A DNA stretch of 64,000 nucleotides from Anaerolineaceae bacterium (GTDB lineage Bacteria; Chloroflexota; Anaerolineae; Anaerolineales; Anaerolineaceae), in NCBI GenBank assembly GCA_016841365.1, contig JAENZI010000012.1, positions 1 to 64,000 of the forward strand, given 5' to 3'. The position numbers were made by a program, and so were the translations under genes. The notes under the pieces are model-generated. The model worked only from the letters and a program-made list of their open reading frames with translations. It searched no databases and had not been told where the DNA came from. The number at the start of each line of letters is the position of its first letter. Position 1 is the first letter of the stretch. Of this stretch, positions 3,490-36,052 are shown piece by piece.

Positions 3490-3500
3490 AAAGCAACCAA

Positions 3501-4664: not shown

Positions 4665-5298
4665 AGTGCTGCGGCTGACATTAGGGCCGCTGCCCAATAA
4701 TGTCTACCTTCTGGGTGATAACGAAACGGGCGATGCTGTTGTGATTGATCCCACATTTGATCCTTCCCTGGTTTTTGCACGGGTGGGTGAAAAAGGATGG
4801 ACGCTCAGGCAAATCTGGTTGACACATGGGCACTTTGATCACTTTGCTGGGGCGGCGGAGATTGCGCAAAACTTTGACCCGCCGCTGCCGATTGGGCTGC
4901 ATCCGCTGGATGGGGACTGGTACCTGAACCAGGGCGGGGCAGAGCAATTTGGGCTTTCGATCGCCCAGCCGCCTGAGCCTTCGATCCGGTTTGAGCATGG
5001 ACAGGAACTACTTCTACAACCAGAGGGTGAGCCTGTTGCAGTGGTGCAGCACGCGCCAGGGCACAGCCAGGGGCATGTCATGTTTTATTGCGAAGCGCTG
5101 GGTGTCTTGTTTTGTGGAGATGTGATCTTTCGGGAGGGGATTGGGAGGACAGACCTGGCAGGGGGCGATATGCTGACATTGATCAGGTCGATTCGAGAGC
5201 GGGTATTTACCTTGCCGGATGAAACCCGTTTGCTGCCTGGGCATGGACCTGAGAGCACTGTTGGGCATGAGCGGCAGCATAATCCGTTCTTGCGCTGA
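4654..5298 (+). CDS. MBL-fold metallohydrolase, glyoxalase II-like
   Basis: A 214-residue metallo-beta-lactamase-fold hydrolase. THGHFDHF near residue 56 supplies the HxHxDH motif, PGHSQGH near 138 a further ligand, FCGD near 152 the bridging aspartate and GHGPES near 197 the last histidine. The order and the small size match the YcbL-like group of glyoxalase II-related enzymes, which hydrolyse thioesters or similar compounds; the actual substrate is unknown. The ATG follows GGAG at about eight bases and overlaps the end of the MFS gene, so the two are probably translated together. Confidence 0.85.
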   Translation: MKLEVLRLTLGPLPNNVYLLGDNETGDAVVIDPTFDPSLVFARVGEKGWTLRQIWLTHGHFDHFAGAAEIAQNFDPPLPIGLHPLDGDWYLNQGGAEQFGLSIAQPPEPSIRFEHGQELLLQPEGEPVAVVQHAPGHSQGHVMFYCEALGVLFCGDVIFREGIGRTDLAGGDMLTLIRSIRERVFTLPDETRLLPGHGPESTVGHERQHNPFLR

Positions 5299-5321
5299 CC
5301 GATTGCTCCTCTGACAGTTGG

Positions 5322-5361
5322 AAATAAAAAAGCTGCTCTGTCAAAATCTTAGAGCAGCTTT
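5322..5361 (-). terminator. Terminator between converging MBL hydrolase and rny
   Basis: An 11-bp perfect stem AAAGCTGCTCT (5329-5339) with AGAGCAGCTTT (5351-5361). On the minus strand it is followed by TTTTTTATTT, giving a strong terminator for rny. The plus-strand tail is weaker but T-rich, so it may serve both directions. Confidence 0.85.
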
Positions 5362-5382
5362 AGTGTTTAATTTTGTGTTTTC

Positions 5383-8699: not shown

Positions 8700-8900
8700 G
8701 TGGAAGGAAAAGAAAAAAATAAAATTATCCTAATGGGGACAGTACTTGGCGCACTGACGGGTGCTGCAGCAGCGTTCGTTTTAATTAAAAGGGCTGAAAG
8801 TGAGCATACAAAACCCAAACTTTCTCCTGGTGAGGGTCTTCAGGTAGGGCTGGGCCTCTTGGGTTTATTGCGGCTGATCGCAGGCTTTGGAGAAGACTGA
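8700..8900 (+). CDS. Small single-helix membrane protein
   Basis: Unknown function. A 66-residue protein with a basic start, one glycine/alanine-rich membrane helix (LMGTVLGALTGAAAAF), a charged stretch and a second weakly hydrophobic end (GLGLLGLLRLIAGF). I choose GTG at 8700 because AAAGGA lies seven bases before it; a GTG at 8637 would add 21 residues without a ribosome site. The layout resembles small YtxH-like or stress-related membrane proteins, but no motif fixes this. It ends 24 bases before RNase Z. Confidence 0.55.
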   Translation: MEGKEKNKIILMGTVLGALTGAAAAFVLIKRAESEHTKPKLSPGEGLQVGLGLLGLLRLIAGFGED

Positions 8901-8924
8901 TTTTAGGAATGGGTAGGACAGCCC

Positions 8925-9848
8925 TTGTTTGAATTAGTTTTTTTAGGCACTTCAGCCTCTGCGCCATCGGTGCACAGAGGTTTGTCTTCCTTATTAATTA
9001 AGCATGAAGAATTTCGTTTCCTTGTGGATTGCGGCGAGGGAACCCAGAGGCAGATCCTTCGTGCCGGCGTTGGGTTTAAGCGTCTCAATCAAATATTGCT
9101 GACGCATGGTCACCTTGATCATATTCTTGGGTTGGGCGGGCTTATTTCAACCTTTTTGCGGTGGGATGTGATGGAAGAGATTGAGATCTACGGCACCCGC
9201 CACACCCTCGACAGGGTGCATGACCTGATCTTCGGGGTGGTGCTGCGGGGTTATCATGGCAAACCGCCCGTTATCATGCACGAGATCACCCCCGGCGTAT
9301 TTTGGGAGGCTGAGCGTTTTTCGATCACGGCTTTCCCGGTTGATCATCGCGGTTCAAACTCGCTGGGGTATAAATTTTCCGAAAGCTCCCGGCGGCCGTT
9401 TTTGCCAGAGAAAGCGGAGGCACTCAATATTCCACCTGGCCCGTGGCGGCGAGACCTGGTAAATGGTGAGAGGATCACGCTGCCTGACGGCAGGATCATT
9501 GAGCCAGATCAGGTGCTGGGCGAATCGCGCCCGGGGACTTCGCTGGTTGTTGTCGGCGATACAGGGCGAGTGGACAACTTGCTGCCCTATGTGCAGGGCG
9601 TCGATGCGCTGGTGATTGAATCGACCTACACCCAGGAGGAGGCTGACCTGGCAGAACGCTTTGATCATCTGACGGCGTCTCAGGCTGCGACCTTGGCGAA
9701 AGAGGCTGGTGTCCGCCAACTCTTTCTAAATCACCTTTCGCGGCGCTATCGCGAACGGGATGTGTTGGACGAGGCTCAGGCGATCTTTCCGGTGGTGCAT
9801 GTGGCACGTGATTTTGATCACTTTCAGATTAAACACGATGAAGATTGA
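8925..9848 (+). CDS. rnz: Ribonuclease Z (tRNA 3' endonuclease)
   Basis: Zinc endonuclease that trims tRNA precursors after the discriminator base. The 307-residue length is that of the short bacterial form. FLGTSASAPS at the N-terminus is the RNase Z signature, THGHLDH gives HxHxDH, VDHRG the next histidine, VVVGDTG the bridging aspartate and FLNHLS the last histidine. The start is TTG, preceded by TAGGA at about eight bases; no ATG fits the conserved N-terminus. The one tRNA of the window carries an encoded CCA and so may not need this enzyme. Confidence 0.93.
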   Translation: MFELVFLGTSASAPSVHRGLSSLLIKHEEFRFLVDCGEGTQRQILRAGVGFKRLNQILLTHGHLDHILGLGGLISTFLRWDVMEEIEIYGTRHTLDRVHDLIFGVVLRGYHGKPPVIMHEITPGVFWEAERFSITAFPVDHRGSNSLGYKFSESSRRPFLPEKAEALNIPPGPWRRDLVNGERITLPDGRIIEPDQVLGESRPGTSLVVVGDTGRVDNLLPYVQGVDALVIESTYTQEEADLAERFDHLTASQAATLAKEAGVRQLFLNHLSRRYRERDVLDEAQAIFPVVHVARDFDHFQIKHDED

Positions 9849-9980
9849 GTGACTTAAATTTCAGCCCGCTGTTTGATTGTTATTATTACATTTTCCATTT
9901 TCCTACACCGATATATTGATCAAAGGACGTGAGGTTGAAATCGCCTTCTCACTTATCACGTAGAGCATCCGGTCAGGTTG

Positions 9981-9989
9981 TGTTAGAAT
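9981..9989 (+). promoter_or_regulatory. Extended -10 promoter element upstream of maf
   Basis: TGTTAGAAT lies seven bases before the maf ATG at 9997. Transcription would begin at or next to the start codon. No clear -35 is seen, as often with extended -10 promoters. Confidence 0.5.
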
Positions 9990-9996
9990 CCCAGCA

Positions 9997-10644
9997 ATGA
10001 AAAAAATTATCCTTGCCTCAAATTCACCGCGCAGGAAGCAACTGCTATCGCTGTTTGGCTGGCCATTTATGGTTGAGCCTGCCGATATCGACGAAGGCTG
10101 GCATCCGGGTGAGACACCCGTAGATTATGTCCGAAGGCTGGCTTGTGAAAAAGCCCTGGTTGTCGCAGATGTGCCCGATGCCCTGGTGATCGCGGCAGAT
10201 ACCATCGTGGTGGATGGTGATGAATTGCTGGGGAAACCAGTGGATGAACGGGATGCCCGGCGGATGCTGCATCAGTTGAGAGGGCGCACTCACCAGGTGT
10301 ATTCAGGTATAGCGCTGATTGACACTAAAACCAAAGAATCCTACAACGATGTTTGCTGCACAGATGTCCCCATGCGTGAGTATTCGGATGCGGAGATTGA
10401 AGCCTACATCGAAACTCAAGATCCTATGGATAAAGCTGGGGCGTATGCCATTCAAAATGCTGGTTTCCATCCTGTGACGGCGTTGACAGGTTGTTTTGCT
10501 TCTGTGATGGGTCTTCCGCTTTGTCACCTGGCAGTCGGATTTCGCCGGCTGGGTTTTGATTACCCTGCGGACTTGCCGGAACAATGCCAGAGGACGCTGG
10601 ATTATGACTGCCCCGTATTCCCCGGCATTTTGGGGCGATCATGA
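9997..10644 (+). CDS. maf: Maf-like nucleoside triphosphate pyrophosphatase
   Basis: Hydrolyses non-canonical or pyrimidine nucleoside triphosphates to monophosphates and is linked to cell-division arrest in some bacteria. ILASNSPRRKQLL at the extreme N-terminus is the phosphate-binding signature and IAADTIVVDGDELLGKP carries catalytic acids. GAYAIQ and GLPLCHL are further family positions. The 215-residue chain is slightly longer than usual because of a C-terminal tail. Its stop overlaps the next gene by four bases (ATGA), coupling it to a penicillin-binding protein, a neighbourhood seen for maf near mre and pbp genes elsewhere. Confidence 0.92.
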   Translation: MKKIILASNSPRRKQLLSLFGWPFMVEPADIDEGWHPGETPVDYVRRLACEKALVVADVPDALVIAADTIVVDGDELLGKPVDERDARRMLHQLRGRTHQVYSGIALIDTKTKESYNDVCCTDVPMREYSDAEIEAYIETQDPMDKAGAYAIQNAGFHPVTALTGCFASVMGLPLCHLAVGFRRLGFDYPADLPEQCQRTLDYDCPVFPGILGRS

Positions 10645-12845
10645 GGAGGCTGATTTTGGGAAGTCGGCTCAAATCCTTTTTATTAATTGTGCTGCTTCTC
10701 AGCATGCTTAGTGCCTGTTTGGGTCAAAGTGTAGAAGCACCTGAGCCGACGCGCATTCCAGGCGACATTACCGATGCTGCGGCTGCGCAAGCCACCGCTC
10801 AAAAATACCTTGAAGCCTGGCAGGTAGAAGATTACGCTGCCATGTATGCACTGCTCACACCGCTCAGCCGTGATGCCATCAGTGAAGAAGATTTTATAAA
10901 TGATTATCATGACGCGGTTAACAACCTGACATTGGATAGCCTATCATTCCAGATCCGTTCAGCGATGGCTGACAACGTTCACGCTGAAGTGGCTTTTAGG
11001 GTTGATTTTTCCACGCTGATGCTCGGCGACCTATCGCGTGATATGGTTATAGGGCTTTCATTTGAGCAAGAGGGCTGGCGGGTTCAATGGGACAGCAGTT
11101 TGATCTTACCGGAAATGGCTGAGGGCAATCAGATTGAGTTCGTTCATCAATTGCCGTCGCGCGGCCGGATTTTAGATCGGGATGGTGCCCCGCTGGCCGC
11201 TTATGAAAGCGCAATCGCGATCGGGATTGTGCCGGGTGAATTGCACCCCGATCAGGCAGAGACGCTGTATGAAACGTTGGCAGAGATCAGCATTTACTCA
11301 CCTGAGACCTTACGCATAAAAATTGAAAACACACCGGATGACTGGTATTTGCCTGTAGTTACCTTATCACAGGCAGCCGTCAAACCTCATATGGAAACGC
11401 TTCGGTCGCTGCAAGGCGTGCGGATCGATGAATTTCGTTCCCGTTATTATGTGGATGGCGGTGTGGCACCGCATATTCTGGGGTATATGCTTTACATCCC
11501 TGAGGAGGAGCTTGAGACCTATTTAAGGCAGGGTTACCGCCAGGATGAACGTATTGGGGTAACCGGCTTGGAAGCCATTTATGAGCAGGAACTTTCAGGT
11601 AAGCGGGGCGGATCGTTGTATCTAATGAGCCCTCAGGGCGAGATCGGATCGTTGATCACCAGCAGCGCACCTGAACCCGGACATTCCCTTTACACCACCC
11701 TCGATAAGGACTTGCAAATGCTTTTGCAGGCTTCCCTCGGTGATTTGCGCGCTGCTGCCGTGGTGATGGAAGTGGATACCGGCAGGGTCATTGCGATGGT
11801 CTCGAACCCTACATTTGACCCGAACGCTTTTGACCTCACGGTTGCAGACCGGAGCCTGCTTGATTCTTACTTCACGGATGCTGACCAACCCCTCTTTAAC
11901 CGAGGAACCCAGGGGCAATATCCATTAGGTTCTGTTTTCAAAGTGATTTCAATGTCTGCTGCGCTTGAAACGGGTTTATACCGGGCGGGATCGAGTTTCT
12001 TTTGCGGCCATTCGCTTTGGGTGTGTGACAGCGTGACCCTCTATGACTGGACACTGGCGCATGGAGTGGGATCCAGCGGTGAGCTGACCCTCGTTGAGGG
12101 CTTGATGCGCTCCTGTAACCCCTGGTTTTACCGAATCGGTGAGAATCTTTATGCTGAGGGGATGGAAAGCAGTTTGTCCGAGATGGCTTTTGGCTTCGGT
12201 TTGGGTAAAGAAACTGGTATTGAAATCGAGGAGTCAGCGGGCAATATCCCTGAAACCGCCGCTACCTGTGTGGCTAACGCCCAGATGGCGATTGGCCAGG
12301 GAGAGGTCTTGGTCACGCCGCTGCAGGTTGCAGCCTTCTTTACAGCGGTTGCGAATGGCGGCACGCTTTATCGGCCAGCGCTGGTCGAACAGATCCAGAC
12401 CGCGTCGGGTGATGTAGTCTTCCAGTTTGAACCAGAAGTTAATGGCAAATTGCCTATCTCTGAAGAAACATTGGCTTCTGTGCAAGAAGGTCTGCGCTTG
12501 GTGATCGAGGAAACACGCGGAACGGGATATTGGGCGATGCAGGGTTTGGATGTGGCTGTTTCCGGTAAAACGGGCACCGCGCAAACCCCCACAGGCAATT
12601 CGCATGCCTGGTTTGCGGGCTATACCCGCCAAAACGATCCGGACCGCCCGGATATCGCCGTTGCAGTGATTATCGAAAATGGGGGCGAGGGTTCGGTGAT
12701 GGCTGCGCCGGTATTCCGCCGCATTGTTTCACTGTATTTTTCGGATTACACCAACCCGGCTGGCGTGATGCCCTGGGAAACTGAGCCATATATCACCGCT
12801 CAACCGACACCTACTCCTACCAGCGAGTCCACAACTGGCGAATGA
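10641..12845 (+). CDS. Class B penicillin-binding protein, lipoprotein with MecA_N-type domain
   Basis: Predicted D,D-transpeptidase that cross-links peptidoglycan. It starts with a lipoprotein signal ending in MLSAC, unlike the usual uncleaved anchor of class B enzymes. Residues about 45-160 look like the NTF2-like MecA N-terminal domain (YLEAWQVEDYAAMY). A dimerisation domain follows, then the transpeptidase with S431-V-F-K434, S491-C-N493 and K643-T-G-T. All three active-site motifs are intact. The tail is Thr/Pro-rich. It overlaps maf by four bases and is followed by a close paralogue, so the pair probably arose by duplication. MecA-type domains are known from low-affinity PBPs; resistance is not implied here. 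Confidence 0.9.
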   Translation: MRRLILGSRLKSFLLIVLLLSMLSACLGQSVEAPEPTRIPGDITDAAAAQATAQKYLEAWQVEDYAAMYALLTPLSRDAISEEDFINDYHDAVNNLTLDSLSFQIRSAMADNVHAEVAFRVDFSTLMLGDLSRDMVIGLSFEQEGWRVQWDSSLILPEMAEGNQIEFVHQLPSRGRILDRDGAPLAAYESAIAIGIVPGELHPDQAETLYETLAEISIYSPETLRIKIENTPDDWYLPVVTLSQAAVKPHMETLRSLQGVRIDEFRSRYYVDGGVAPHILGYMLYIPEEELETYLRQGYRQDERIGVTGLEAIYEQELSGKRGGSLYLMSPQGEIGSLITSSAPEPGHSLYTTLDKDLQMLLQASLGDLRAAAVVMEVDTGRVIAMVSNPTFDPNAFDLTVADRSLLDSYFTDADQPLFNRGTQGQYPLGSVFKVISMSAALETGLYRAGSSFFCGHSLWVCDSVTLYDWTLAHGVGSSGELTLVEGLMRSCNPWFYRIGENLYAEGMESSLSEMAFGFGLGKETGIEIEESAGNIPETAATCVANAQMAIGQGEVLVTPLQVAAFFTAVANGGTLYRPALVEQIQTASGDVVFQFEPEVNGKLPISEETLASVQEGLRLVIEETRGTGYWAMQGLDVAVSGKTGTAQTPTGNSHAWFAGYTRQNDPDRPDIAVAVIIENGGEGSVMAAPVFRRIVSLYFSDYTNPAGVMPWETEPYITAQPTPTPTSESTTGE

Positions 12846-16171: not shown

Positions 16172-18103
16172 ATGAAACGCTGGCTCCGAATTTTATTGTT
16201 AATCCCGATTCTGTTGGCTGCTTGCCGCGCGCCGGTGAATGAACCGACGGCGGAGGTGGATGAACCAACAGAGACCCAGGCTGCGATTTTTTCTCCGACG
16301 CCTACAGCGACCGAAACCCCGCCGAAGGTTTTGACGGTTTGCACAACCCAATTACCTGACAACCTGCTCCCCTTTGGGAATTCGGGTTCGGCTGCGATGG
16401 AAAATTTACTGGCGATGACCTTCGAAAGCGGTTTTGTCCTCAATGATGGCGAGATTGCCCCTGGGATTGTGGCGAAGGTGCCCACCCAGGCGGATGGCGA
16501 TTTGCGGCTTACGCCTGTTTCCGTGCAGCGCGGGCAGCTTGTGATGAACGCTGAGGGTTCACTGGCAGTTCTTAAGGCGGGTGTACGCGTCTTCCCGAGC
16601 GGGTGCCGGCAGCCTGATTGTTCGCTGACCTGGGATGGCGAAACTCCCCTCGAAATGGACCAACTGGCGATCACATTCAAGATCAGGGATGACCTGACCT
16701 GGTCTGACGGCACAGCGGTTACGGCAGAGGATTCCGTCCTGGGCTATGAAGTTGCGGAATGGGCTGCTCAAGAAAGCTGGGGTTGGGAAGAAGAAAGAAC
16801 CATGTCCTACCGGGCGGTTGACACGAACACCGTCGAGTGGGTTGGCGTGCCGGGCTTTACTACATCACAGCTTGATGATTTCTTCTGGGCTCCGCTGCCG
16901 TCGCACTGGTTTGATGAGGCGCAATCGCCTCATGCGATCGTTGAAGATGAACGCTGGATCATGGAGCCGCCGAGTTACGGGCCTTTTGTGCTGGCATCCC
17001 GGGGTGTTGATGAACTTCGTCTGGAAGCAAACCAGAATTACTATCTGGCAGAGCAAGGGCTGCCGGAGCTGGACTCTGTGATCTATAAAGCTGTGCCAGG
17101 CGGAGCGCAGGCTGCCTGGGAAGCACTGCAATCTGGTTGGTGTGATGTGCTGGATGGTTCATTTAATTTGGCAGGTGAAAAAGCCTTGTTGGCAGAGATA
17201 AGCCAGGATGACCGGTTTTCCATTCAAACTCACACAGGTTTGGAATGGGTTCAGCTTGCCTTTGGGATAATGCCGGCATCTTATGATGATGGTTACCAGC
17301 CCGGGTTTGGCGACCGACCGGATATTTTCGGCGACCCTCTGACGCGTCAGGCTCTGACTGCCTGTCTGGACCGGCAGGCGATGCTTGATGAAACGATTGG
17401 GTATTTGGGCGAGGTGTGGAACAGCTTTTTGCCGCCTGATGCATCCCTGCTTGAAACAGCGGATGTGATCGGGCATGACCCGGCCTATGGCGTCCAGTTG
17501 CTTGAGCAAGTTGGCTGGCTTGATCATGACGGCGACGCTCAAACGCCTCGGCAAGCGTTTAATATCGCTGGGGTGAATAATGGCGAACCCCTGTCACTGG
17601 AACTGCTGGTTTCTCAATCTGGTCTCCATGCGGATTTGGCGGAGATTATCAATCGATCACTGGGTGAGTGCGGTGCAGCAGTCACTGTGACCAGCATGCC
17701 AGCACTGTATGCGCCCGGACCTCAGGGGCCGGTGTTTGGCCGCCAGTTCGACCTGGCTCTGATGGCATGGCAGCCGATGCCTGCGCTGGATTGCCTGTTT
17801 TATCAAACCGGGCAAATCCCTTCTGCGGCGAATAACTGGATTGGCACCAACATTGCGGGGCTGTCTGATACAGATTATGATAACGCCTGCCTGGCCGCGG
17901 CTTTTGCCCTCCCAGATGAGTATGACCAAGCGCTGCGCCAGGCTGAAGCGATGTATGTCGACCGTATGCCGGCCGTGCCCTTATTTGCCGTGCCAGAAGT
18001 GGTTGTGGTGGCAAAAGAGTTTTGTTCTTCTGAGGCGATTACAGAACCATCAAGCATGTTTGATGGGATTGAATTCTTGGATTTAAGTGTGGGTTGCCCC
18101 TGA
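16172..18103 (+). CDS. Family-5 ABC solute-binding lipoprotein (orphan)
   Basis: Extracellular binding protein of the oligopeptide/nickel (SBP_bac_5) class, 643 residues. The lipobox ILLAAC puts the lipidated Cys near residue 18, followed by a Thr/Pro/Glu linker. WSDGTAVTAEDSVLGYE near residue 180 and YGPFVL near 270 mark the N-terminal half, and RQALTACLDR near 395 the C-terminal half, so the order is canonical. No permease or ATPase adjoins it; it probably works with a transporter encoded elsewhere, or has become a sensor. It lies 34 bases after rsgA. Confidence 0.8.
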   Translation: MKRWLRILLLIPILLAACRAPVNEPTAEVDEPTETQAAIFSPTPTATETPPKVLTVCTTQLPDNLLPFGNSGSAAMENLLAMTFESGFVLNDGEIAPGIVAKVPTQADGDLRLTPVSVQRGQLVMNAEGSLAVLKAGVRVFPSGCRQPDCSLTWDGETPLEMDQLAITFKIRDDLTWSDGTAVTAEDSVLGYEVAEWAAQESWGWEEERTMSYRAVDTNTVEWVGVPGFTTSQLDDFFWAPLPSHWFDEAQSPHAIVEDERWIMEPPSYGPFVLASRGVDELRLEANQNYYLAEQGLPELDSVIYKAVPGGAQAAWEALQSGWCDVLDGSFNLAGEKALLAEISQDDRFSIQTHTGLEWVQLAFGIMPASYDDGYQPGFGDRPDIFGDPLTRQALTACLDRQAMLDETIGYLGEVWNSFLPPDASLLETADVIGHDPAYGVQLLEQVGWLDHDGDAQTPRQAFNIAGVNNGEPLSLELLVSQSGLHADLAEIINRSLGECGAAVTVTSMPALYAPGPQGPVFGRQFDLALMAWQPMPALDCLFYQTGQIPSAANNWIGTNIAGLSDTDYDNACLAAAFALPDEYDQALRQAEAMYVDRMPAVPLFAVPEVVVVAKEFCSSEAITEPSSMFDGIEFLDLSVGCP

Positions 18104-22575: not shown

Positions 22576-24330
22576 ATGTCTGAACATCAAGATCCTAATT
22601 TAGAACCAGAAGTAGAACTGATCGACAAGATTGAAGAAGAAATGCGGCTTGACGATGCCCGGCGTGTCAAGGTGCTTTCGCCCGGCATGCTTGTTTTCAA
22701 GCGCTTCATCCGTAACAAACTGGCTGTTGTCGGTTTGGGTATTTTATTCTTCATGTTTACCTTTTCTTTCCTGGGGCCGATTTTCTCGCCTTATGAACAA
22801 ACCCAGGTCTTTACCGGTTTGGGGAGCATGTCCAAGGATTATGCAGGGGCGATTTTTAATGAAGAATTGCGCTATACCGTTGCGGAAGAGGAATCCTTTA
22901 GTAACGCAGAACGCGCCCAATTCTTATTAGCCCTCGGAAAGGGTGAAGAAACTTTTTCTGTCGGTGACGATGTGTATTATTTCACAACTGAAAGTGAAGA
23001 CACATATCGGATCATGCAGCTTGACCCGGTGGCTGAAGAGCTTTTAGGCCGTATCAATCCAATCAACGGTGGGTCATTACCCGATGGCTTTGTGGAAGCT
23101 TATGAAACTGCTTCTGACAACGACCAGGCCAGCTTTGAATTTGATGGCACGATGTACCGAATTACCCAGAATCGCAAAGCTTTTCAGATTTCGACCGAAC
23201 ACGATGTAGCCTTAGCATCATTGACAATTTATGATGCATACAATCAGGAAGATACCGAAGAAGTCAATGCCTATCCGTTTATGCTTGCCAGTGAACGGGC
23301 GATCGCTGAACAGGATACAGAATTTACTGTAGGTGATAAAGAATATGCGGTCGATTACCAGGAAGGACGTGCGACGATTCTGAGCGGTGATGATCAGCCG
23401 TACGCTGAAGTATCGAATATCATCGTGAATCCGCTGGACCAGAACGAATTCCTGACGGTTGAATACAAAAACGCCATCCGAGATGCGGTCATTGATCGAG
23501 AAGATGAAGTTGATTTTACCCATGAAAACGGTGAAACCATCACTTACACGATTTCTCGCATCAATCAAAACTATTACATTAAGCGTGAAACACCGACCAC
23601 GTTAATTCGCCAGTATGAAGCGCCTTCTGCAGATCACCCATTAGGGTTGGATAACAACGGTATGGACGTCATGACCCGCCTGATGTATGGTGGACGGGTT
23701 TCACTGTTGGTTGGTTTTGTGGTTGTGATCATTGAGGTTGTGCTTGGCGTCATTATCGGCGGTATCGCTGGTTATTTTGGCGGTGCAGTCGATACAGCCC
23801 TCATGCGTTTTGTGGACCTCTTTAACAGCATCCCGTTCTACCCGATCGTGATCATTTTTGGTTCCGTGATGGATACGCTGGAAGTGGAACCCATGACACG
23901 TATTTTCTTGTTGATGGCGATCCTGGGTATCCTTGGTTGGACGGGCGTAGCCCGTGTGGTACGCGGTCAGATCCTATCTCTGAGAGAGCAGGACTTCATG
24001 GTCGCGGCAGAGGCAACCGGCATCCGCACCAGCCGCCGGATCTTCCGGCATCTTGTGCCGAATGTGATGCCGCTGTTGATCGTGCAGGCAACCGCAGGCT
24101 TGGGCGGGATCATCATCTCCGAAGCCACGTTGGGTTTCTTGGGCCTGGGTGTAAAATACCCCCTGGCCTCATGGGGCAGTATTATCAATGTTTCTTCAGA
24201 TGCTTACGTGATGACAAACTTCTGGTTCATGTGGATCCCCGCTGGTTTGTTGATCCTGTTGACGGTGCTTGGCTTCAATTTTGTTGGCGACGGCCTTCGG
24301 GACGCATTTGACCCGAAGATGAAAAGGTAG
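22576..24330 (+). CDS. Peptide ABC transporter permease, OppC-like, with four-repeat extracytoplasmic insertion
   Basis: Partner of the OppB-like subunit. OppC proteins have about 300 residues; this has 584. Helix 1 (about 49-69) is followed by an acidic region to about residue 350, after which DHPLGLDNNGMDVMTR and the remaining helices are canonical, with the EAA loop AAEATGIRTSRRIFRH near 475. The insertion appears to hold four imperfect repeats beginning at F116, F172, F235 and Y297, each reading aromatic-x2-3-A, acidic stretch, F-x3-G/E, Y, and ending in Y/F-x-I. By topology it lies outside the membrane and could contact the binding protein or the substrate. Confidence 0.88.
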   Translation: MSEHQDPNLEPEVELIDKIEEEMRLDDARRVKVLSPGMLVFKRFIRNKLAVVGLGILFFMFTFSFLGPIFSPYEQTQVFTGLGSMSKDYAGAIFNEELRYTVAEEESFSNAERAQFLLALGKGEETFSVGDDVYYFTTESEDTYRIMQLDPVAEELLGRINPINGGSLPDGFVEAYETASDNDQASFEFDGTMYRITQNRKAFQISTEHDVALASLTIYDAYNQEDTEEVNAYPFMLASERAIAEQDTEFTVGDKEYAVDYQEGRATILSGDDQPYAEVSNIIVNPLDQNEFLTVEYKNAIRDAVIDREDEVDFTHENGETITYTISRINQNYYIKRETPTTLIRQYEAPSADHPLGLDNNGMDVMTRLMYGGRVSLLVGFVVVIIEVVLGVIIGGIAGYFGGAVDTALMRFVDLFNSIPFYPIVIIFGSVMDTLEVEPMTRIFLLMAILGILGWTGVARVVRGQILSLREQDFMVAAEATGIRTSRRIFRHLVPNVMPLLIVQATAGLGGIIISEATLGFLGLGVKYPLASWGSIINVSSDAYVMTNFWFMWIPAGLLILLTVLGFNFVGDGLRDAFDPKMKR

Positions 24331-26880: not shown

Positions 26881-27226
26881 TAACAAGTGGGAAATATACC
26901 TTTTATGTAGAATAACCAAAAGCAGGATTAATGAGAATTGCATATTGTTCTTGCTGTGAATTAAAAGAATCTGATAATCGTTTTTGAGTTGACAGCCAAT
27001 TCTTGACGGGGAATTGGATGTATGCTATATTTTTGATTAGACATTTCTAATATCTGGTATTATTAATATAACCTTATTCACGATCGCAAATCAATTAATC
27101 TTCTGCACGAGAAATCAATTGATAAGGAGGTGGTGAATCCTCATTTATTACCCCAAAATACATCCCCAATAGTTGTTTCGTTCCACTAGTTTCATGACAA
27201 ATAATATTTGTTATGGAGGAGAAAAT
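26881..27226 (+). promoter_or_regulatory. Promoter region of the second peptide importer
   Basis: TTGACG (27003-27008), a 17-bp spacer and TATATT (27026-27031), preceded by TGC, form an extended -10 promoter. About 190 nt of leader follow. The leader holds AAGGAGGTGG at 27124-27133 with no gene directly behind it, and the real ribosome site GGAGGA at 27215. The rest of the stretch is AT-rich and shows no gene. Confidence 0.75.
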
Positions 27227-29854
27227 ATGCAAAAGAAACTGTTAGCTATATTTGGTATCGTGGTGGCATTGGCCTTAGTTTTGGCCGCGTGCCAACCCAC
27301 AACAGATACCACTCAACCCACACCTGAGACCATCATCGAAACGGTGATCGTCACTGAAGAGGTCGAGGTTGAGGTTGTTGTTACCGAGGTTGTGACCGAA
27401 ATCGTTGAGGTTGAGGCGGAAGTTGAACGAAACGGCGCCTGGCTCGACACGGTCGTGATTTTGGCTGAACCCTCGACTGAATCAGCCGTCGCCCGGATCA
27501 TCGCCGATGACATTGATGTGTATGCGCAGGCAGCCACCAGTGTTGAAGCATTAGCGACTGTTGAAGAGGAAGGCCTGAAATACATCTCAACCGTTGGCTC
27601 TTATAACGAGTTCACGCTCAGCCCCGGCGGCCCAGTCCTCAATGATGGTAGTCTGAACCCATTTGGCGTACCAAAGATCCGCGAAGCCATGAACTATCTT
27701 GTGGATCGCAATTATGTGGTACAGGAGATCCTCGGCGGCCTTGGTATTCCAAAATTCCTGCCTCTGAATGGCGTTTTCCCGGACTATGCCCGGCATGTGG
27801 ATGTTGCCCGAGAGCTGGAGAACAAGTACGCTTATGATCCTGAGATGGCCGATTCGATCCTTACCCCCGAAATGGAAGCCTTAGGCGCAGAAAAAGTTGA
27901 TGGCGTCTGGCAATATGAAGGCGAACCGGTGACTCTGATCGGCATCATCCGCACTGAGGATGAGCGCTTGCAGATGGGCGATTACTTTGCCAACCAGCTT
28001 GAATCGATTGGTTTCACGGTTGATCGTCAGTATAAGACATCCTCCGAAGCTTCACCAATCTGGCTTCTGAGCGATCCTCAGGAAGGGCTCTGGCATTTCT
28101 ATACAGGTGGCTGGATCACCACTGCCATCAGCCGTGATGACTATGATGTCTTCCAATTCTTCTATTCACCCAATTCGGCCTATGGGTTTACGCCCTTATG
28201 GCAGAACTACGTGATTACCGATGAATACCTTGATGTTTCCGAAAAACTCGCCAATGGCAATTACGCAACGCTTGAAGAACGCGCTGAGCTATTCCGCGAA
28301 GCGTTGTATCTGGCGCTCGAAAATTCCTATCGTATTTGGATCAATGACGCAACAGCGTTCTCCCCGATGGATCCGACAGTTACGGTCACTTATGACCTGG
28401 CTGGCGGTATCTCCGGAACACCGCTCTGGGGTCATACGATGCGCTACACAGATGAGATCGGCGGGCAGGTTGTTATGGCCATGTCCGATGCTCTGGTTGA
28501 GCCCTGGAACCCGTTGGCTGGCTCCAACTGGGTGTATGATATGGCACCCATGCGCGCCACTGGCGATTATGGTACCATCCCCGACCCATATACCGGCCTG
28601 ACCTGGCCGCAGCGTGTTGAAAGCGCCGCCATCACGATTGTGGAAGGCTTACCTGTTGGTAAGACCCTTGACTGGCTTACGTTGGACTTTGCGCCTGAAA
28701 TCCAGGTGCCCGGCGACGCCTGGGTGGACTGGGACGCTGAGAATCAGGTCTTTATCACCGCAGACGAAAAGCTGGCGATGATGGCTGAAGAAGAACCCGC
28801 AGAAGGCGAGGAAGCCGTCGAAGTGCCTGAATACTTCACCGCAAAACGCAAGAGCGTGGTGACCTATCCTGCTGACCTATTCGAGAAGCATACCTGGCAC
28901 GATGGCAGCCCGATGTCCCCAGCGGACTTTGTGATGGGCATGATCCTCTCCTTTGATCCCGGCACTGAGGGCAGTGTGATCTTTGATGAATCGCAGATCG
29001 GCTCAGTTGAATCCTTCAAGAGCTCTTTCAAGGGTATGAAGGTTGTTTCTACTGATCCCATGGTCATCGAATATTACTCCGATGTAGTCTATCTGGATGC
29101 TGAATGGTCTGTGGCTGACTTCTGGCCGTATTACTCATATGGCGAGGGTCCATGGCATATGTTAGCCATCGGTATTTTGGCTGAAACTGACGAAGAATTA
29201 GCCTTCAGCGGTGACAAATCTGAAGCCCTTGAGGTTGAGTGGACGAACTACATCAGTGGTCCTTCGCTCGATATCCTGAAAGCAAATCTTGACCAGGCAA
29301 TGGAAGAGGATTACATCCCCTACGCAGCCACACTTGGCGAATACATCACTGCCGAAGAGATGGATCTGCGTTATGCCAACCTGCTGGATTGGTACCGCAT
29401 TCAGGGTCACTTCTTTGTCAACTCCGGTCCGTTCTACCTGAACAAGGTGTTCCCGGTCGAGAAGACCCTTACGCTGACCCGTTACCAGGATTATCAAGAT
29501 CCGGCTGGCAAGTGGGATCGCTTTGGCGTACCGCAAATTGCTGAAATCGAAATTGACGGCCCCGGCCGTGTGACAACCGGCGAAGAAGTAACCTTCGATG
29601 CCTATGTCACCTTCCAGGGTGAACCCTATCCATCGGCAGATATCCAGGTTGTGAATTACCTGCTGTTCGATGCTACGGGTATCTTAGTTGATAGAGGCGA
29701 TGCGGAGTTGGTGGATGAAGGTCTGTACAGTGTGACCTTGTCCGCTGATGCTACTGGCGCTCTCGAAGCCGGCTCCAACAAGCTTGAGATCATTGTGGTT
29801 CCGACGGTTGTGAGTGTTCCGACCTTTGCCCAATTTGAATTTGTGACGGAGTAA
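27227..29854 (+). CDS. Peptide-type ABC binding lipoprotein with circularly permuted halves and C-terminal Ig-like domain
   Basis: Binding protein of the second importer, 875 residues. The signal ends in VLAAC (Cys22), then a valine/glutamate linker. In ordinary family-5 proteins the WHDG region comes first, the G-PY hinge next and the R-AL-Y-IDR region last. Here the segment starting NGAWLDTVVI and KIREAMNYLVDR (near 150) comes first, and VVMAMSDAL-EPWNPLAGS (near 415), WHDGSPMSPADF (near 557) and NSGPFYL (near 732) come after. About 105 beta-rich residues (770-875) form a further domain. The start at 27227 follows GGAGGA; 27173 would put 18 residues before the signal. The solute is unknown. 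Confidence 0.82.
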   Translation: MQKKLLAIFGIVVALALVLAACQPTTDTTQPTPETIIETVIVTEEVEVEVVVTEVVTEIVEVEAEVERNGAWLDTVVILAEPSTESAVARIIADDIDVYAQAATSVEALATVEEEGLKYISTVGSYNEFTLSPGGPVLNDGSLNPFGVPKIREAMNYLVDRNYVVQEILGGLGIPKFLPLNGVFPDYARHVDVARELENKYAYDPEMADSILTPEMEALGAEKVDGVWQYEGEPVTLIGIIRTEDERLQMGDYFANQLESIGFTVDRQYKTSSEASPIWLLSDPQEGLWHFYTGGWITTAISRDDYDVFQFFYSPNSAYGFTPLWQNYVITDEYLDVSEKLANGNYATLEERAELFREALYLALENSYRIWINDATAFSPMDPTVTVTYDLAGGISGTPLWGHTMRYTDEIGGQVVMAMSDALVEPWNPLAGSNWVYDMAPMRATGDYGTIPDPYTGLTWPQRVESAAITIVEGLPVGKTLDWLTLDFAPEIQVPGDAWVDWDAENQVFITADEKLAMMAEEEPAEGEEAVEVPEYFTAKRKSVVTYPADLFEKHTWHDGSPMSPADFVMGMILSFDPGTEGSVIFDESQIGSVESFKSSFKGMKVVSTDPMVIEYYSDVVYLDAEWSVADFWPYYSYGEGPWHMLAIGILAETDEELAFSGDKSEALEVEWTNYISGPSLDILKANLDQAMEEDYIPYAATLGEYITAEEMDLRYANLLDWYRIQGHFFVNSGPFYLNKVFPVEKTLTLTRYQDYQDPAGKWDRFGVPQIAEIEIDGPGRVTTGEEVTFDAYVTFQGEPYPSADIQVVNYLLFDATGILVDRGDAELVDEGLYSVTLSADATGALEAGSNKLEIIVVPTVVSVPTFAQFEFVTE

Positions 29855-29889: not shown

Positions 29890-29927
29890 ATGATAGGGGC
29901 AGGGCTCCTGAGCCTTGTCCCTATCAT
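29890..29927 (+). terminator. Intercistronic hairpin after the second binding-protein gene
   Basis: Positions 29890-29907 and 29910-29927 form an 18-bp stem with two G-U pairs. No long T tract follows, so it looks more like an mRNA-stabilising or attenuating element than a full terminator. It occupies the same place as the hairpin in the first importer operon. Confidence 0.6.
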
Positions 29928-30018
29928 TCAATAGGGGTGTTATTTTTCTGGAAAAAGCGTTGGTCTGGCATTATGTCGTAATTATTAGAAATTCTCTATT
30001 GTAATATAGGATATTCGT

Positions 30019-31155
30019 ATGACCACAGAATCGAAAACAATCCAAACAGTTGCAGGTGCTAAAAGAAAAGCCTGGGTTGGCACGTTATCGAGGGTTGCAA
30101 AATACACAGCCCTCCGTTCTGTCACCATGCTGATCACTGTTGTGATCGGTATCTACCTGACCATCCTGATCGCAAACATGGGCGGTTATGTGGATGAAAT
30201 TATGCGCGGGCAGATCCGTGAGCAGGTAGCGATGACACTGAGGAACCAGGAGGAGTATAAACAGCTCAGCCAGGAGGCGAAGGATGCCCGGTTTCAGCGT
30301 GAGGTGATGGATGAAGAACAACGGCTTGGGCTGAACCAGCCCTTTATCGTCCGCAGTTTCAGGTTCCTGTGGGACGGCCTGACCTTGAACTTAGGGACTG
30401 CGTTACGTATGACCAGTGACACGGGTTCACGGCAGGTACGGTTGATCATCCTGGAGCGCTTAGGGCCAACCTTGTTACTGATGGGTACGTCGCAACTGCT
30501 TCTATTTTTTACCAGCGTTTACCTGGCGTTGATCCTTTCACGTAAGTACGGCAGTTTTTTTGACCGGGCAGTGATTACCCTCTCGCCGACATCTTCTGCG
30601 CCTTCATGGTTTTATGGTATCTTTCTCATATTGATCTTTGCCGCGCTGCTGCGGATCCTACCGTTTGGCGGGATGATCGGCGCACCGCCTCCTGAAAACT
30701 CGTGGGAATATACCCTGGATGTGCTGAAACACATCATCCTTCCAGCCTCAGCCTTGTTTGTCAGCCTGATCTTCATCAGCATTTATAACTGGCGCACATT
30801 CTTCCTGATCTTTTCAAGTGAAGATTACGTGGAGATGGCTAAAGCTAAAGGCCTTTCGGACCGTGAGATCGAACGTCGCTATGTCTTACGTCCCACGTTG
30901 CCGACAATCATCACATCTTTTGCGCTGATGTTGATCTCCTTATGGACGGGCGCAATCGTCACCGAAACAGTGTTTAATTGGCCCGGGTTAGGGCGGACGC
31001 TTTTTTCGGCGGTCGGACAATATGATACGCCGGTGATTGTTGGTTTGACGATCATTTATGCTTACTTATTAGCGATTACCGTTTTCCTGCTCGACTTTAT
31101 TTACGCCCTGGTAGACCCACGGGTTAAAGTCGGCGGCAGACAAAAGAAAGCGTAG
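30019..31155 (+). CDS. Peptide ABC transporter permease, OppB-like (second importer)
   Basis: Channel subunit of 378 residues, with six predicted helices after a 30-residue cytoplasmic start. Between helix 1 and the next lies a charged, helix-forming outside segment (about residues 60-125) longer than in the first operon's OppB. The EAA loop is MAKAKGLSDREIERRYVLRP near 275. AGGA at seven bases supports the ATG. The stop is seven bases before the OppC-like gene. Confidence 0.9.
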   Translation: MTTESKTIQTVAGAKRKAWVGTLSRVAKYTALRSVTMLITVVIGIYLTILIANMGGYVDEIMRGQIREQVAMTLRNQEEYKQLSQEAKDARFQREVMDEEQRLGLNQPFIVRSFRFLWDGLTLNLGTALRMTSDTGSRQVRLIILERLGPTLLLMGTSQLLLFFTSVYLALILSRKYGSFFDRAVITLSPTSSAPSWFYGIFLILIFAALLRILPFGGMIGAPPPENSWEYTLDVLKHIILPASALFVSLIFISIYNWRTFFLIFSSEDYVEMAKAKGLSDREIERRYVLRPTLPTIITSFALMLISLWTGAIVTETVFNWPGLGRTLFSAVGQYDTPVIVGLTIIYAYLLAITVFLLDFIYALVDPRVKVGGRQKKA

Positions 31156-31162
31156 ATAAATT

Positions 31163-32506
31163 ATGAAAGCATTTAAAAATTCATTTCAAGAAATAAAACG
31201 TTATCCATCTGCCATGTTTGGGCTGGCGATTGTGATCCTCCTGATCATCACAAGTATTGTCGTGATCATTGCCATCCCATACAACGAGGCTATTCGTCTG
31301 TGGCGAGGGGGAGAAGGTATATGGTATCAGAACCCGAAAACTGCGCCGCCTGCCTGGACCAACTGGTTCACCAAAGAGGATAAACCTTCCTCTTATTTTT
31401 TGGCAGAAGGCGATGAGCGGGTAACAAAGACGGTTGAAGAATTTACTGAGGGGTCGGGTGATATTACTTACGTTTTTACGTTTGAATATGATTATGATGC
31501 CTTTCCATCAGAGATGGCGCTATATCTTGAAAGTGATTATGAAACGAAGAATCCCTTTGCGGATATGTATTGGATCCAACCTGACGGCACAGAGATTCGG
31601 GTAGCCAGCATTGGCGTTGATAAATCGCAAACCCTGTATTTCTCACAGGACAGCAAGTTACAGCGCAGGTTAGGCGATGTCTCCCCTGAAGTCGGCTTAT
31701 TTATTGTTCCAGATTCCGATCCGCCACAGGTGATACCGGGCACTTATCAATTGATTGTTGATGGGATCCGGTTTGAACCCGATTCGGATATTAATGCGGA
31801 ATTTGTGATTTACGGCCAGGTGCATGGCTTGGCAGGCACAGACCATCTCAGGCGGGACCTTTCGATTGCACTGCTGTGGGGCATCCCGATCGCGCTGATT
31901 TTCGGCCTGGTCGCAGCGTTGGGCACATCAATATTGACGATGACGATCGCGGCAATCGGCGTGTGGAATGGTGGTTGGGTGGATGAGTTGATCCAGCGCA
32001 TCACGGAAATCAATATGGTGCTACCCTTCCTATCCATTTTGGTGATGATTGGGACGTTCTATTCTAAAAGTTTATGGGTGATCCTTGGCGTGACGATTTT
32101 ATTAAGCATCTTTGGGGGCGGGATCAAAACCTATCGGGCGAACTTTATGCAGATCAAAGAATCCATGTATATCGAAGCGGCCGAAGCCTATGGTGCCAAG
32201 AATTCACGCATCATCTTCCTGTACCTGATCCCCCGGATCATCCCGTTATTAATTCCTGGGCTGGTTTCTTCCATCCCAACCTATGTGTTCCTCGAAGCCA
32301 CTTTGGCGGTGCTGGGGCTGGGTGATCCCGTTCTGCCCACATGGGGGAAGATCATCAACGATGCTCAGCAAGCTGGGGCTTTATATAACGGGATGTATTA
32401 CTGGATCCTTGAACCAGCGGTGCTTTTGATGATCACTGGCCTTGCATTTGCCATGCTGGGCTTCTCTTTAGACCGAATTTTCAACCCGAGATTGCGAGGG
32501 CTATAA
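31163..32506 (+). CDS. Peptide ABC transporter permease, OppC-like, with beta-rich insertion
   Basis: Partner permease of 447 residues, about 150 more than usual. After helix 1 (about 18-38) an outside domain of roughly 180 residues (41-222) precedes the canonical AGTDHLRRDLSIALLWG. It alternates charged and aromatic residues (YVFTFEYDYDAF, TYQLIVDGIRFE), suggesting beta strands, and shows no resemblance to the insertion in the first operon's OppC. The EAA loop is EAAEAYGAKNSRIIFLY near 332. It is 4 bases from the next gene. Confidence 0.88.
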   Translation: MKAFKNSFQEIKRYPSAMFGLAIVILLIITSIVVIIAIPYNEAIRLWRGGEGIWYQNPKTAPPAWTNWFTKEDKPSSYFLAEGDERVTKTVEEFTEGSGDITYVFTFEYDYDAFPSEMALYLESDYETKNPFADMYWIQPDGTEIRVASIGVDKSQTLYFSQDSKLQRRLGDVSPEVGLFIVPDSDPPQVIPGTYQLIVDGIRFEPDSDINAEFVIYGQVHGLAGTDHLRRDLSIALLWGIPIALIFGLVAALGTSILTMTIAAIGVWNGGWVDELIQRITEINMVLPFLSILVMIGTFYSKSLWVILGVTILLSIFGGGIKTYRANFMQIKESMYIEAAEAYGAKNSRIIFLYLIPRIIPLLIPGLVSSIPTYVFLEATLAVLGLGDPVLPTWGKIINDAQQAGALYNGMYYWILEPAVLLMITGLAFAMLGFSLDRIFNPRLRGL

Positions 32507-32510
32507 AATA

Positions 32511-33491
32511 ATGGTTACGACTGAATCAAATAATAACAAACTCATCAAGATTAAAGATCTCAAACTATATTTTAATGTGCAGCAGGGCGAAGTTCAGGCT
32601 GTGGATGGCGTGGATTTTGAATTAGAAAATAACTCCTCCGTCGTGATCCTGGGCGAATCTGGCTGCGGCAAGAGTTCGCTGGCAAAAGCGATTTTACGCT
32701 TGCTGCCGCGAAACGCTGGTAAATATGAGGGCGAAGTCTGGTTTGGCGGTCAGGATGTGATGAAGTTAGATGATGAAGCCTTCAGGCGCAATGTGCGCTG
32801 GGTGGGGATGTCGATGGTGCCCCAGGCGGCTCTGAATTCGCTCAACCCGGTGCTGCGGATTGGGGACCAGGTATCGGAGCCGGTGATCGTGCACCACGGG
32901 TTGAAGAAGGACGAAGCTTGGCGCATGGCGCGCAAAATGTTCCGCCATGTCGGTGTTCCGGATGATTTCCTGATCCGGTATCCCTTTGAATTAAGTGGCG
33001 GGATGCGCCAACGTGCAGCGATTGCCATGGCGCTGGTTACCCTGCCTAACCTGATCATCCTCGACGAGCCTACCTCGGCGCTGGACCTGTTGACGCAAGC
33101 GAATATCTTCAATGTGCTCAAACGGCTTAAAGACGAATTCGGGATCAGCTATATCCTGATTACGCACGATATTGCCACATCAAGTGAGCTGGCACAAAAT
33201 GTAGCTGTGATGTATGCCGGGCAAATGGTTGAAGTCAGTGATGCCAAACGGTTTTTTGCAAAACCGCTGCATCCTTATTCGCAGAAGTTAATGGCAAGCG
33301 TGCCCCGACTGCATGGTGATGCGGAGCTTGAATTCATCAAAGGGACGCCACCCAGTTTGCTGAATCCACCAACTGGTTGCAGATTCAAATCCCGTTGTCA
33401 CAAACGTTTTGAAAAATGTGATGAAGAACCCCCGGTATTCAATCGTGATGGGATCAAGGTTCGTTGTTGGCTTTATGAAGAGAATGTGTAG
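32511..33491 (+). CDS. Peptide ABC transporter ATPase, OppD-like (second importer)
   Basis: Walker A GESGCGKSSLAK, Q-loop VPQAALNSLNP, signature LSGGMRQRA, Walker B IILDEPTSALD and LITHDIATS. The C-terminal oligopeptide domain has the cysteine pattern GCRFKSRCHKRFEKC. At 326 residues it lacks the N-terminal extension of the first operon's counterpart. Only four bases separate it from the OppC gene. Confidence 0.93.
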   Translation: MVTTESNNNKLIKIKDLKLYFNVQQGEVQAVDGVDFELENNSSVVILGESGCGKSSLAKAILRLLPRNAGKYEGEVWFGGQDVMKLDDEAFRRNVRWVGMSMVPQAALNSLNPVLRIGDQVSEPVIVHHGLKKDEAWRMARKMFRHVGVPDDFLIRYPFELSGGMRQRAAIAMALVTLPNLIILDEPTSALDLLTQANIFNVLKRLKDEFGISYILITHDIATSSELAQNVAVMYAGQMVEVSDAKRFFAKPLHPYSQKLMASVPRLHGDAELEFIKGTPPSLLNPPTGCRFKSRCHKRFEKCDEEPPVFNRDGIKVRCWLYEENV

Positions 33492-33500
33492 GAGACCTTA

Positions 33501-34565
33501 ATGACTGACGAAATGACAACCTTAGATGAAGTCAGACCAGAAGATCAGGAGCGGAAGAATGATAACGTTCTGGATGTTCAAGATCTTAAAGTGTGGTTCG
33601 AGCTGCGCAGGCTTGGCTTTGGACATGCGGGCTTTGTTCACGCCGTTGATGGCGTGAGTTTCAAGCTCAAACGCGGCGAAGCGATCGCCATTGTTGGCGA
33701 AAGCGGCTGCGGCAAATCGAGCTTGATGAAAACCATTTTAGGATTAAATGAAATTACCGATGGTGCCATATTTTATGAAGATATGAACCTAAATGAGATG
33801 GATGGTAAAACCCTGCGCTGGTATCGCTCCACTCAAATTGGTTATGTTCAGCAAGACCCCTATGGCGCCTTACCGCCATTCATGACCATCCAACGAATTA
33901 TTGAAGAACCTTTGATCGTTGGTGGTATGAAGGATAAAGAACAGCGGCTTGACCGTGTACGGAAAGTGATGAACGAAGTCCGGTTAATTCCTGTTGATGA
34001 CTATCTCAGCAAATTCCCGCATCAGATCAGCGGCGGGCAGCAGCAGCGTGTTGTCATCGCTCGGGCTTTGATCCAGGAACCAGAGATCATTGTGGCGGAT
34101 GAGCCCGTCTCCATGCTGGATGCCTCAGTGCGTGTTGAAGTGCTCAAACTGATGCGTGGCTTACAAGAAGAGCATAACATCTCATTTATTTATATTACGC
34201 ACGACCTCTCAACAGTGCGCTATTTCTCCGAATATATTTTTGTGATGTATGCAGGTTTGATTGCTGAAAAAGCCAAGCAGCGCGATCTGCTCACCAACCC
34301 AAAGCATCCTTACACCTATGCTCTATTGACAGCGACTTCGGAGCCTGAATATGAGAATGCGCTTGGCTTTAAAGAGGTGCCGCCTGGTGAGCCGCCCAGT
34401 TTGGTCAAGCCACCTCAGGGGTGCCGCTTCCACCCGCGATGTAAATGGGCTATTGCCGGCGTATGCGACACGGAAGACCCGCCGAATTTTACGATTGAGG
34501 AAGGTCACGAAGTCGCTTGCTGGCTTTATGATGAGCGCTATGAAACTCCTGAATTCGCCTCTTAA
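33501..34565 (+). CDS. Peptide ABC transporter ATPase, OppF-like (second importer)
   Basis: Walker A GESGCGKSSLMK, Q-loop VQQDPYGALPP, signature ISGGQQQRV, Walker B IIVADEPVSMLD and YITHDLST. The C-terminal domain ends with GCRFHPRCKWAIAGVC and ACWLYD, completing the cysteine cluster. Length 354. GGAG lies about seven bases before the ATG. Its end overlaps the following small membrane gene by about 26 bases. Confidence 0.93.
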   Translation: MTDEMTTLDEVRPEDQERKNDNVLDVQDLKVWFELRRLGFGHAGFVHAVDGVSFKLKRGEAIAIVGESGCGKSSLMKTILGLNEITDGAIFYEDMNLNEMDGKTLRWYRSTQIGYVQQDPYGALPPFMTIQRIIEEPLIVGGMKDKEQRLDRVRKVMNEVRLIPVDDYLSKFPHQISGGQQQRVVIARALIQEPEIIVADEPVSMLDASVRVEVLKLMRGLQEEHNISFIYITHDLSTVRYFSEYIFVMYAGLIAEKAKQRDLLTNPKHPYTYALLTATSEPEYENALGFKEVPPGEPPSLVKPPQGCRFHPRCKWAIAGVCDTEDPPNFTIEEGHEVACWLYDERYETPEFAS

Positions 34566-34983: not shown

Positions 34984-36052
34984 TGTAGGATTACAATACA
35001 TTTTGGACAGTGATGGAGAAAAAGGATAGCAGGAAAAGGGACAATCCGTTATTGTTACTGCGCTGAACAAAATCAATAATGGAGGACACCTAATCCTACT
35101 ATGAATAAGATAACACAAGATATGAAATAAGGGGAGTCCCTGATGAAATATGCTCGGACCCATGGTGTGAGCCGTGCTTCCCGGAGATACAACAAAACTA
35201 GATTGTACATCTATTTTTGGCTGAGGCGTTATGATGGCACAACAGCATCTCTGGCCTGTCGGTCCCGGAAGCCTCATCACCACCCTAACTGTCACAAGGA
35301 AGAAGAGCTGAAACTAATCAGAGATATGCGAAGGGCAAATAAAAATCTGGGATTGATGGAGTTTTGGTTCAAATTGAGGCACAGAGGCTACCAACGGCAC
35401 TATGTCAGCCTCAATCGGGTGTTGGTTAGAGAAGGCTTGCTGCCCGCCAGAAAGCCTAAAAATGCAAAATACCGTCCTCAGCCCTATGAACAAATGGCCT
35501 ATCCAGGGCAACGCATTCAGATTGACGTCAAACATGTGCCACGAAGCTGTCAGGTATCGTCTGGAGATCGCAAGTATTATCAATACACAGCCATTGATGA
35601 GTACAGCCGTTTGAGATATTTGGAGGCCTTTGAAGAGGCAAACACCTATTCTTCCCAGATTTTTGCGCAACAGGTCCTAAACTGGTTCAGACAGAGAGGG
35701 ATCCAGGTGGAGTGCATTCAGACGGACAATGGGTTTGAATTCACAAAAAGGTTGGGAAGATCCAAAAAAGAAACATACCTATCCTTGTTTGAACAATACC
35801 TGCAAACTCAAGGCGTTCGTCACAAGACCATTCGGCCTTATACCCCCAGACACAATGGAAAAGTGGAAAGGAGCCACAGAGAAGACCAAAAGCGACTTTA
35901 CGATCAGGCGAAATTCTATTCTTTTGATGATTTCAAGATCCAACTTAGACGTCATAATCAGCGCACTAATCATATCCCAATGAAGCCTTTGAACTTCCTC
36001 TCACCTATTCAATTCCTTGAGCAAGGTGTCCAATATGTTTGACAATCCTACA
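34984..36052 (+). mobile_element. IS481-like insertion sequence, 1069 bp
   Basis: Terminal inverted repeats of 26 bp lie at 34984-35009 and 36027-36052. They match at 21 positions, with TGTAGGATT at the outer end and TTGGACA at the inner end of both. They enclose a single DDE transposase gene whose stop lies inside the right repeat. No target duplication is obvious in the bases next to the ends. The element lies between the peptide importer terminator and a minus-strand membrane gene and does not break a recognisable gene. Confidence 0.85.
35143..36042 (+). CDS. IS481-like DDE transposase, probably missing its original start
   Basis: Catalyses cut-and-paste or copy movement of the surrounding element. 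A helix-turn-helix region (THGVSRASRRYNKTRLYIYFW) comes first, then the rve catalytic core with Asp in QIDVKHV, Asp in QTDNGFEF and Glu in HNGKVERSHRE. In frame and upstream, ATG at 35101 encodes MNKITQDMK, followed by TAA at 35128-35130 and then GESLMKY. Related transposases, as I recall them, read straight through this point with a tyrosine, so TAA probably replaced TAT or TAC. AAGGGGAG before ATG 35143 would allow restart, giving the 299-residue protein listed. Activity is uncertain. Confidence 0.8.
   Translation: MKYARTHGVSRASRRYNKTRLYIYFWLRRYDGTTASLACRSRKPHHHPNCHKEEELKLIRDMRRANKNLGLMEFWFKLRHRGYQRHYVSLNRVLVREGLLPARKPKNAKYRPQPYEQMAYPGQRIQIDVKHVPRSCQVSSGDRKYYQYTAIDEYSRLRYLEAFEEANTYSSQIFAQQVLNWFRQRGIQVECIQTDNGFEFTKRLGRSKKETYLSLFEQYLQTQGVRHKTIRPYTPRHNGKVERSHREDQKRLYDQAKFYSFDDFKIQLRRHNQRTNHIPMKPLNFLSPIQFLEQGVQYV

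Follow-up and report, generated by a model that had tools for sequence, protein, structure and literature searches.

Does the gene at 27,227–29,854 of the 64,000-nucleotide Anaerolineaceae stretch analysed here (the window) encode a family-5 binding protein with the two halves of its fold in reversed order? A sequence-only reading had proposed this from the order of its motifs, which indeed lie where that reading placed them, with LDTVV at residue 72, REAMNYL at 152, VVMAMSD at 415, WHDG at 557 and SGPFYL at 733, followed by YQDYQD at 753. The open reading frame is intact, with an ATG at 27,227 behind a GGAGGAG ribosome-binding site (27,215–27,221), and its 875-residue product was assigned by Pfam, profile and model to permuted family-5 substrate-binding lipoproteins of a type that we call P1; this gene, its parts and the operon genes that follow it all lie on the forward (+) strand. 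The protein opens with a lipoprotein signal peptide ending in LAAC (C22; 27,227–27,292), modelled as a helix over residues 2–20, and a Thr/Glu/Val-rich linker (residues 23–67; 27,293–27,427) of low confidence in the model (pLDDT below 50 for residues 21–62). A first block (residues 68–398; 27,428–28,420), assigned by Pfam, profile and structure to the C-terminal half of OppA/DppA, then leads through the putative join of the old C-terminus to the old N-terminus, placed by the ends of structural matches at about residues 381–413 (28,367–28,465), into a second block (residues 414–768; 28,466–29,530), which contains WHDG and SGPFYL and was assigned by profile and model to the N-terminal half, and finally into an Ig/macroglobulin (MG)-like domain (residues 769–875; 29,531–29,851).

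The Pfam SBP_bac_5 profile (PF00496) matched the receptor with an E-value of 1.4e-22 and a score of 80.8 bits, above the gathering cut-off of 32.4 bits. Because positions 146–364 of the 368-position profile sit at residues 71–316, the later part of SBP_bac_5 comes first in the receptor; the profile start (25–62) lies later in the chain, and no collinear start-to-end alignment with ordinary SBP_bac_5 was found. The second half alone matched the start of the ordinary family-5 profile weakly (E = 0.006). A family profile (A1) built from 45 relatives aligned with the archaeal OppA chain 7fi3 in two blocks of reversed order, with 479–736 on chain residues 63–310 (i-E 6e-25) and 69–319 on 323–596 (i-E 1.7e-39), and 7fi3 was again the best chain when the second half was the query by itself (E = 3.2e-27). 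Because a single re-permuted sequence gained little in Pfam (84.8 versus 80.8 bits), we used a family-level rotation scan, in which the A1 profile was cut at 37 points and each rotation was aligned by hhalign to ten family-5 proteins, one of which (L084) is itself permuted and introduces no bias in favour of the result. In the native order, 301 columns aligned, covering canonical columns 303–616 only, with an hhalign score of 170.8; rotated at residue 400, the profile aligned over 501 columns (canonical 102–614) with a score of 213.9, and cuts near residues 380–440 gave ~500 aligned columns.

An AlphaFold model of the receptor, built from the family's own alignment (pLDDT 91, pTM 0.84), matched 7fi3 residues 333–755 with its residues 63–410 (Z 26.8) and ordinary family-5 proteins at Z of ~21–23, including AppA (1xoc, residues 205–520) and DppA (1dpp, residues 204–507); the structural matches listed for this first half were family-5 proteins. 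The N-terminal 410 residues are not a separate complete fold, as residues 63–410 aligned only to the canonical C-terminal part. A separate model of residues 405–875 aligned with 298 residues of 7fi3 at 2.5 Å (Z 30.1), starting at chain residue 34, with 735 as the last aligned 7fi3 residue, so that a short portion of the model is matched to the end of that chain; 7fi3 was the sole solved family-5 protein among the matches listed, the list being filled by Ig-domain matches. In these predicted models, fold elements of both lobes are present, since the halves, aligned separately, cover complementary parts of 7fi3, and the permuted chain is predicted still to form the usual two lobes. Profile, rotation scan and predicted structure all support the circular permutation that the motif order had suggested. 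The added β-rich domain at the C-terminus, likewise part of that proposal, was modelled as a macroglobulin/Ig-like sandwich of 107 residues that shares the fold of the MG/Ig-like bacterial alpha-2-macroglobulin 4u4j (Z ~12 over 96 residues), a likeness that implies no function.

The receptor gene adjoins OppB/C/D/F-type genes. Beyond a terminator-like hairpin in the receptor–permease gap (29,916–29,939; a pattern match only) lie genes for an OppB-like permease of 378 residues (30,019–31,155; BPD_transp_1), an OppC-like permease of 447 residues with an extra stretch behind its first membrane segment (31,163–32,506; Pfam), and, recognised by sequence motifs, an OppD-like ATPase of 326 residues (32,511–33,491) and an OppF-like ATPase of 354 residues (33,501–34,565). 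All four are conserved neighbours, with OppB, OppC and two ATPases coming next at nearly all P1 loci with enough flank. Full-length collinear relatives in the P1 order occurred in ~100 of 396 genomes of the class at roughly 43–59% identity, with a distant subfamily at 26–34% identity and further P1 relatives in other classes; one all-species scan with exact peptides returned mostly Chloroflexota titles. A re-permuted query found no close canonical-order relative of P1 in 301 genomes, only matches to halves, and the plasmids searched yielded weak ordinary matches only. In this homologue search, which the sequence-only reading had proposed as a check, the permuted forms shared the same OppB/OppC partners. 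At the level of sequence, the halves of the receptor are swapped, its gene stands ahead of its permeases, and the order has been kept over a large clade. The Ig domain is tied neither to the permutation nor to the OppC insert, as family f98 lacks the domain and keeps both; a coupling of the domain to the insert was rejected on the OppC length of ~445–461 residues in that family.

Several P1 loci depart from the common pattern. Tandem pairs of P1 genes (L099:136–2469 with 3478–5700, and L101:6404–8794 with 8797–11235) could serve as starting material for permutation through duplication. Two receptors (L129:576–4283 and L130:2542–6432) are fused to ~650 extra residues, N-terminal FG-GAP repeats in L129 and a long C-terminal extension in L130 that reads by eye as β-sandwich repeats. 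Those of L104:6393–8957 and L105:6157–8727 have no lipobox and end in a hydrophobic segment with basic residues, and are perhaps anchored from the opposite end, while the receptor of L102:5319–7769 bears a twin-arginine-like signal. Within the window, the OppC-like permease of a first operon (22,576–24,330; 584 residues) has ~300 residues separating its first membrane segment from the remainder, and an integrase-core (rve) transposase ORF (35,143–36,042) lies just 3′ of the P1 operon. In L003 and L004, the P1 receptor is immediately preceded by a homologue of the window's orphan family-5 receptor (16,172–18,103; normal order), and the first operon therefore appears to have been inserted between the two in the window.

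The chain ends have moved a second time in family f98, from small genomes, where five genes on five contigs of four genomes (L097:4858–7125, L110:1–2262, L111:1492–3885, L113:212–2551 and L116:3–1889, the last with its 5′ end missing) show an order that we call P2. Here the leader, where complete, is followed by the equivalent of residue 233 through to the core end and then by the equivalent of residues 70–227, placing the termini at the tip of a lobe-II hairpin; the corresponding hairpin is unbroken in the P1 gene of the window (residues 228–232; 27,908–27,922). The P2 joins contain a P1 tail (KWLFLLEP-like) and then a P1 leader motif (TGAWVDEI-like); as old tail and old leader are thereby joined, head-to-tail fusion is favoured. 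In L097, the Pfam match runs continuously across the join, a ribosome site is present and a hairpin lies behind the stop, and the same permease and/or ATPase genes adjoin four of the five P2 genes.

Permuted receptors also occur outside the P1 lineage. On another contig of the window's own genome, L084 (L137:6881–8542) encodes a family-5 lipoprotein of 553 residues in which profile positions 216–365 precede 1–209. Against canonical proteins, its residues 53–271 correspond to the C-terminal part and 288–515 to the N-terminal part; against L144, one of its canonical-order relatives in the class, its residues 60–285 are 46% identical to residues 291–512 and its residues 292–546 are 45% identical to 28–280. 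Behind the gene come OppB, OppC and two ATPases, and the cut (P3) lies just before the R-QA helix, in a lobe-II loop distinct from the P1 site. Relatives in this same order (P3a) were found in three further genomes at ~70% identity and also in G351 and G795, so that at least six genomes carry P3. The swapped L084 ruled out the idea that all other family-5 proteins of the genome are in normal order. The sequence-only reading had described a contrast internal to the window, which holds insofar as its other two receptors keep the normal order, but the contrast is not clean within the genome.

A Pfam scan of 15 relatives detected 13 genes with profile pieces reversed inside a single gene, among roughly 100 family-5 genes, a count read by hand that leaves out P1 genes with the first piece only. 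Two further groups, P3b (L154:2698–4722 and L155:1795–3846) and P3c (L152:2376–4355 and L153:2489–4411), are cut at the P3a loop; in L152, a canonical receptor directly adjoins. The family-5 receptors of a fourth type, P4 (L148:2156–3907, L149:3626–5338, L150:1777–3522 and L151:3353–5062), run from canonical residues 166–560 to ~91–174, with the cut in lobe I and the first lobe-I segment now C-terminal. All P3b, P3c and P4 genes adjoin OppB/OppC-type genes. In a tree of canonical and rotated permuted proteins, each type formed one clade, with P3a sister to canonical proteins at full support and P3c grouped with other canonical proteins. A single P3 event, with P3a, P3b and P3c as a clade, was rejected at a cost of 183 log-likelihood units (p 1e-6; several long branches). 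The chain ends have thus probably moved repeatedly, at four or more cut sites (the P1 lobe crossover, the P2 lobe-II hairpin, the P3 loop before the R-A helix and P4 in lobe I) and in about six or more events by the trees, whose long branches and midpoint rooting make the event count approximate; some of these events would be parallel ones at the same loop, and each form would have been retained as a functioning receptor of its operon.

Could the reversed order have arisen in some other way? An assembly or gene-calling artefact is hardly credible: the relatives come mostly from metagenome assemblies, but the P1 order recurs without frameshift in the ~100 separately assembled genomes, P2 and P3 are each found in several genomes, and every 5′-complete protein read begins with a signal or hydrophobic leader. 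Domain shuffling, by which a partial family-5 protein would have acquired a lobe from another source instead of descending from one permuted ancestor, would fit the weak match of the second half alone to ordinary family-5 profiles, and such an origin has been considered for a portion of the Treponema pallidum protein MglB-2 as well (PMC4990184). It is nevertheless very improbable, given that 7fi3 is the best relative of both halves, over adjacent ranges, and that both P3 blocks match one canonical protein at nearly equal identity. For P2, trees placed the genes at three positions among P1 forms, which could reflect a single origin followed by gene conversion with P1 paralogues; PAHTGxW(V/L)D is common to the joins of L110, L116 and L111, and the P2 genomes carry several paralogues, some in tandem. 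We regard this as rather doubtful, since a single P2 clade costs 310 log-likelihood units and trees of the two segments taken apart agree, both placing L111 with L099_136 and L113 with the L100 group.

Because the nearest solved relative, 7fi3, was crystallised with a pentapeptide according to its structure title, oligopeptides are our best guess for the ligand. The sequence-only reading had left the choice between peptide and glycan; the former is favoured, and the latter found no direct support. A glycan or other non-peptide ligand is a lesser though real possibility: oligosaccharides are bound by several family-5 relatives of solved structure (TM1223, chitin-oligosaccharide proteins), and in several loci of the distant P1 subfamily (L049, L050, L054 and L056) a gene for a secreted Asp-box (BNR) propeller lies upstream of the receptor, but the conserved neighbours of the window receptor's subfamily include no sugar enzyme.

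Taking these observations together, we hold with high confidence that the receptor arose in nature by circular permutation of a family-5 (cluster C) binding protein of the archaeal-OppA type, is tethered to the membrane and serves an importer of the OppBCDF type, whose substrates are most likely oligopeptides; operons and predicted fold indicate the importer-receptor role. In the permutant, the old ends would have been joined at the segment named above and new ends opened near the predicted crossover between lobe I and lobe II, so that the lipid anchor would now lead into the beginning of the lobe-II block, with the Ig-like domain on the freed end. Lobe closure is established for family-5 proteins and nothing points to a change in the permutants; ligand binding and closure would proceed as in OppA. 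The permutation has probably come about by tandem duplication and fusion, with the outer parts then lost, a course of events repeated in the group; among the genes read, no fused tandem intermediate was seen.

Very few natural permutations of binding proteins have been reported. Our literature search of open-licence papers found one case, T. pallidum MglB-2 (PMC4990184), and no report, by title or abstract, of permutation in family 5, in which recurrent permutation appears to be undescribed. About one in seven family-5 receptor genes of the sampled relatives is in swapped order, at several cut sites, and order-bound profiles split or half-miss such receptors. A group with canonical siblings at 45% identity amounts to a natural experiment on the origin and retention of circular permutations. 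In it, duplication-and-loss, parallel cut sites and the consequences for folding, anchoring and permease docking can be tested directly.

Among known systems, the oligopeptide permease A of Thermococcus kodakarensis (7fi3) gives the best match to both halves, in sequence and structure alike, but has the canonical order, with the equivalent of receptor residues 414–768 first and that of 68–410 second. AppA, DppA, NikA and others likewise share the SBP_bac_5 fold of residues 63–410 with the halves in the other order. In Tp0684/MglB-2 ('Type Ic', 'Cluster Bc'), a tethered ABC substrate-binding protein has been circularly permuted in nature across a whole clade, and the authors who described it made a suggestion about tethering (PMC4990184). 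The P1 receptor resembles it: it too is tethered, and its clade has inherited a cyclic shift in the order of the fold. MglB-2, however, has a class B sugar-binding fold, another cut and a single permutation, whereas the receptors described here belong to family 5 and are cut at several sites.
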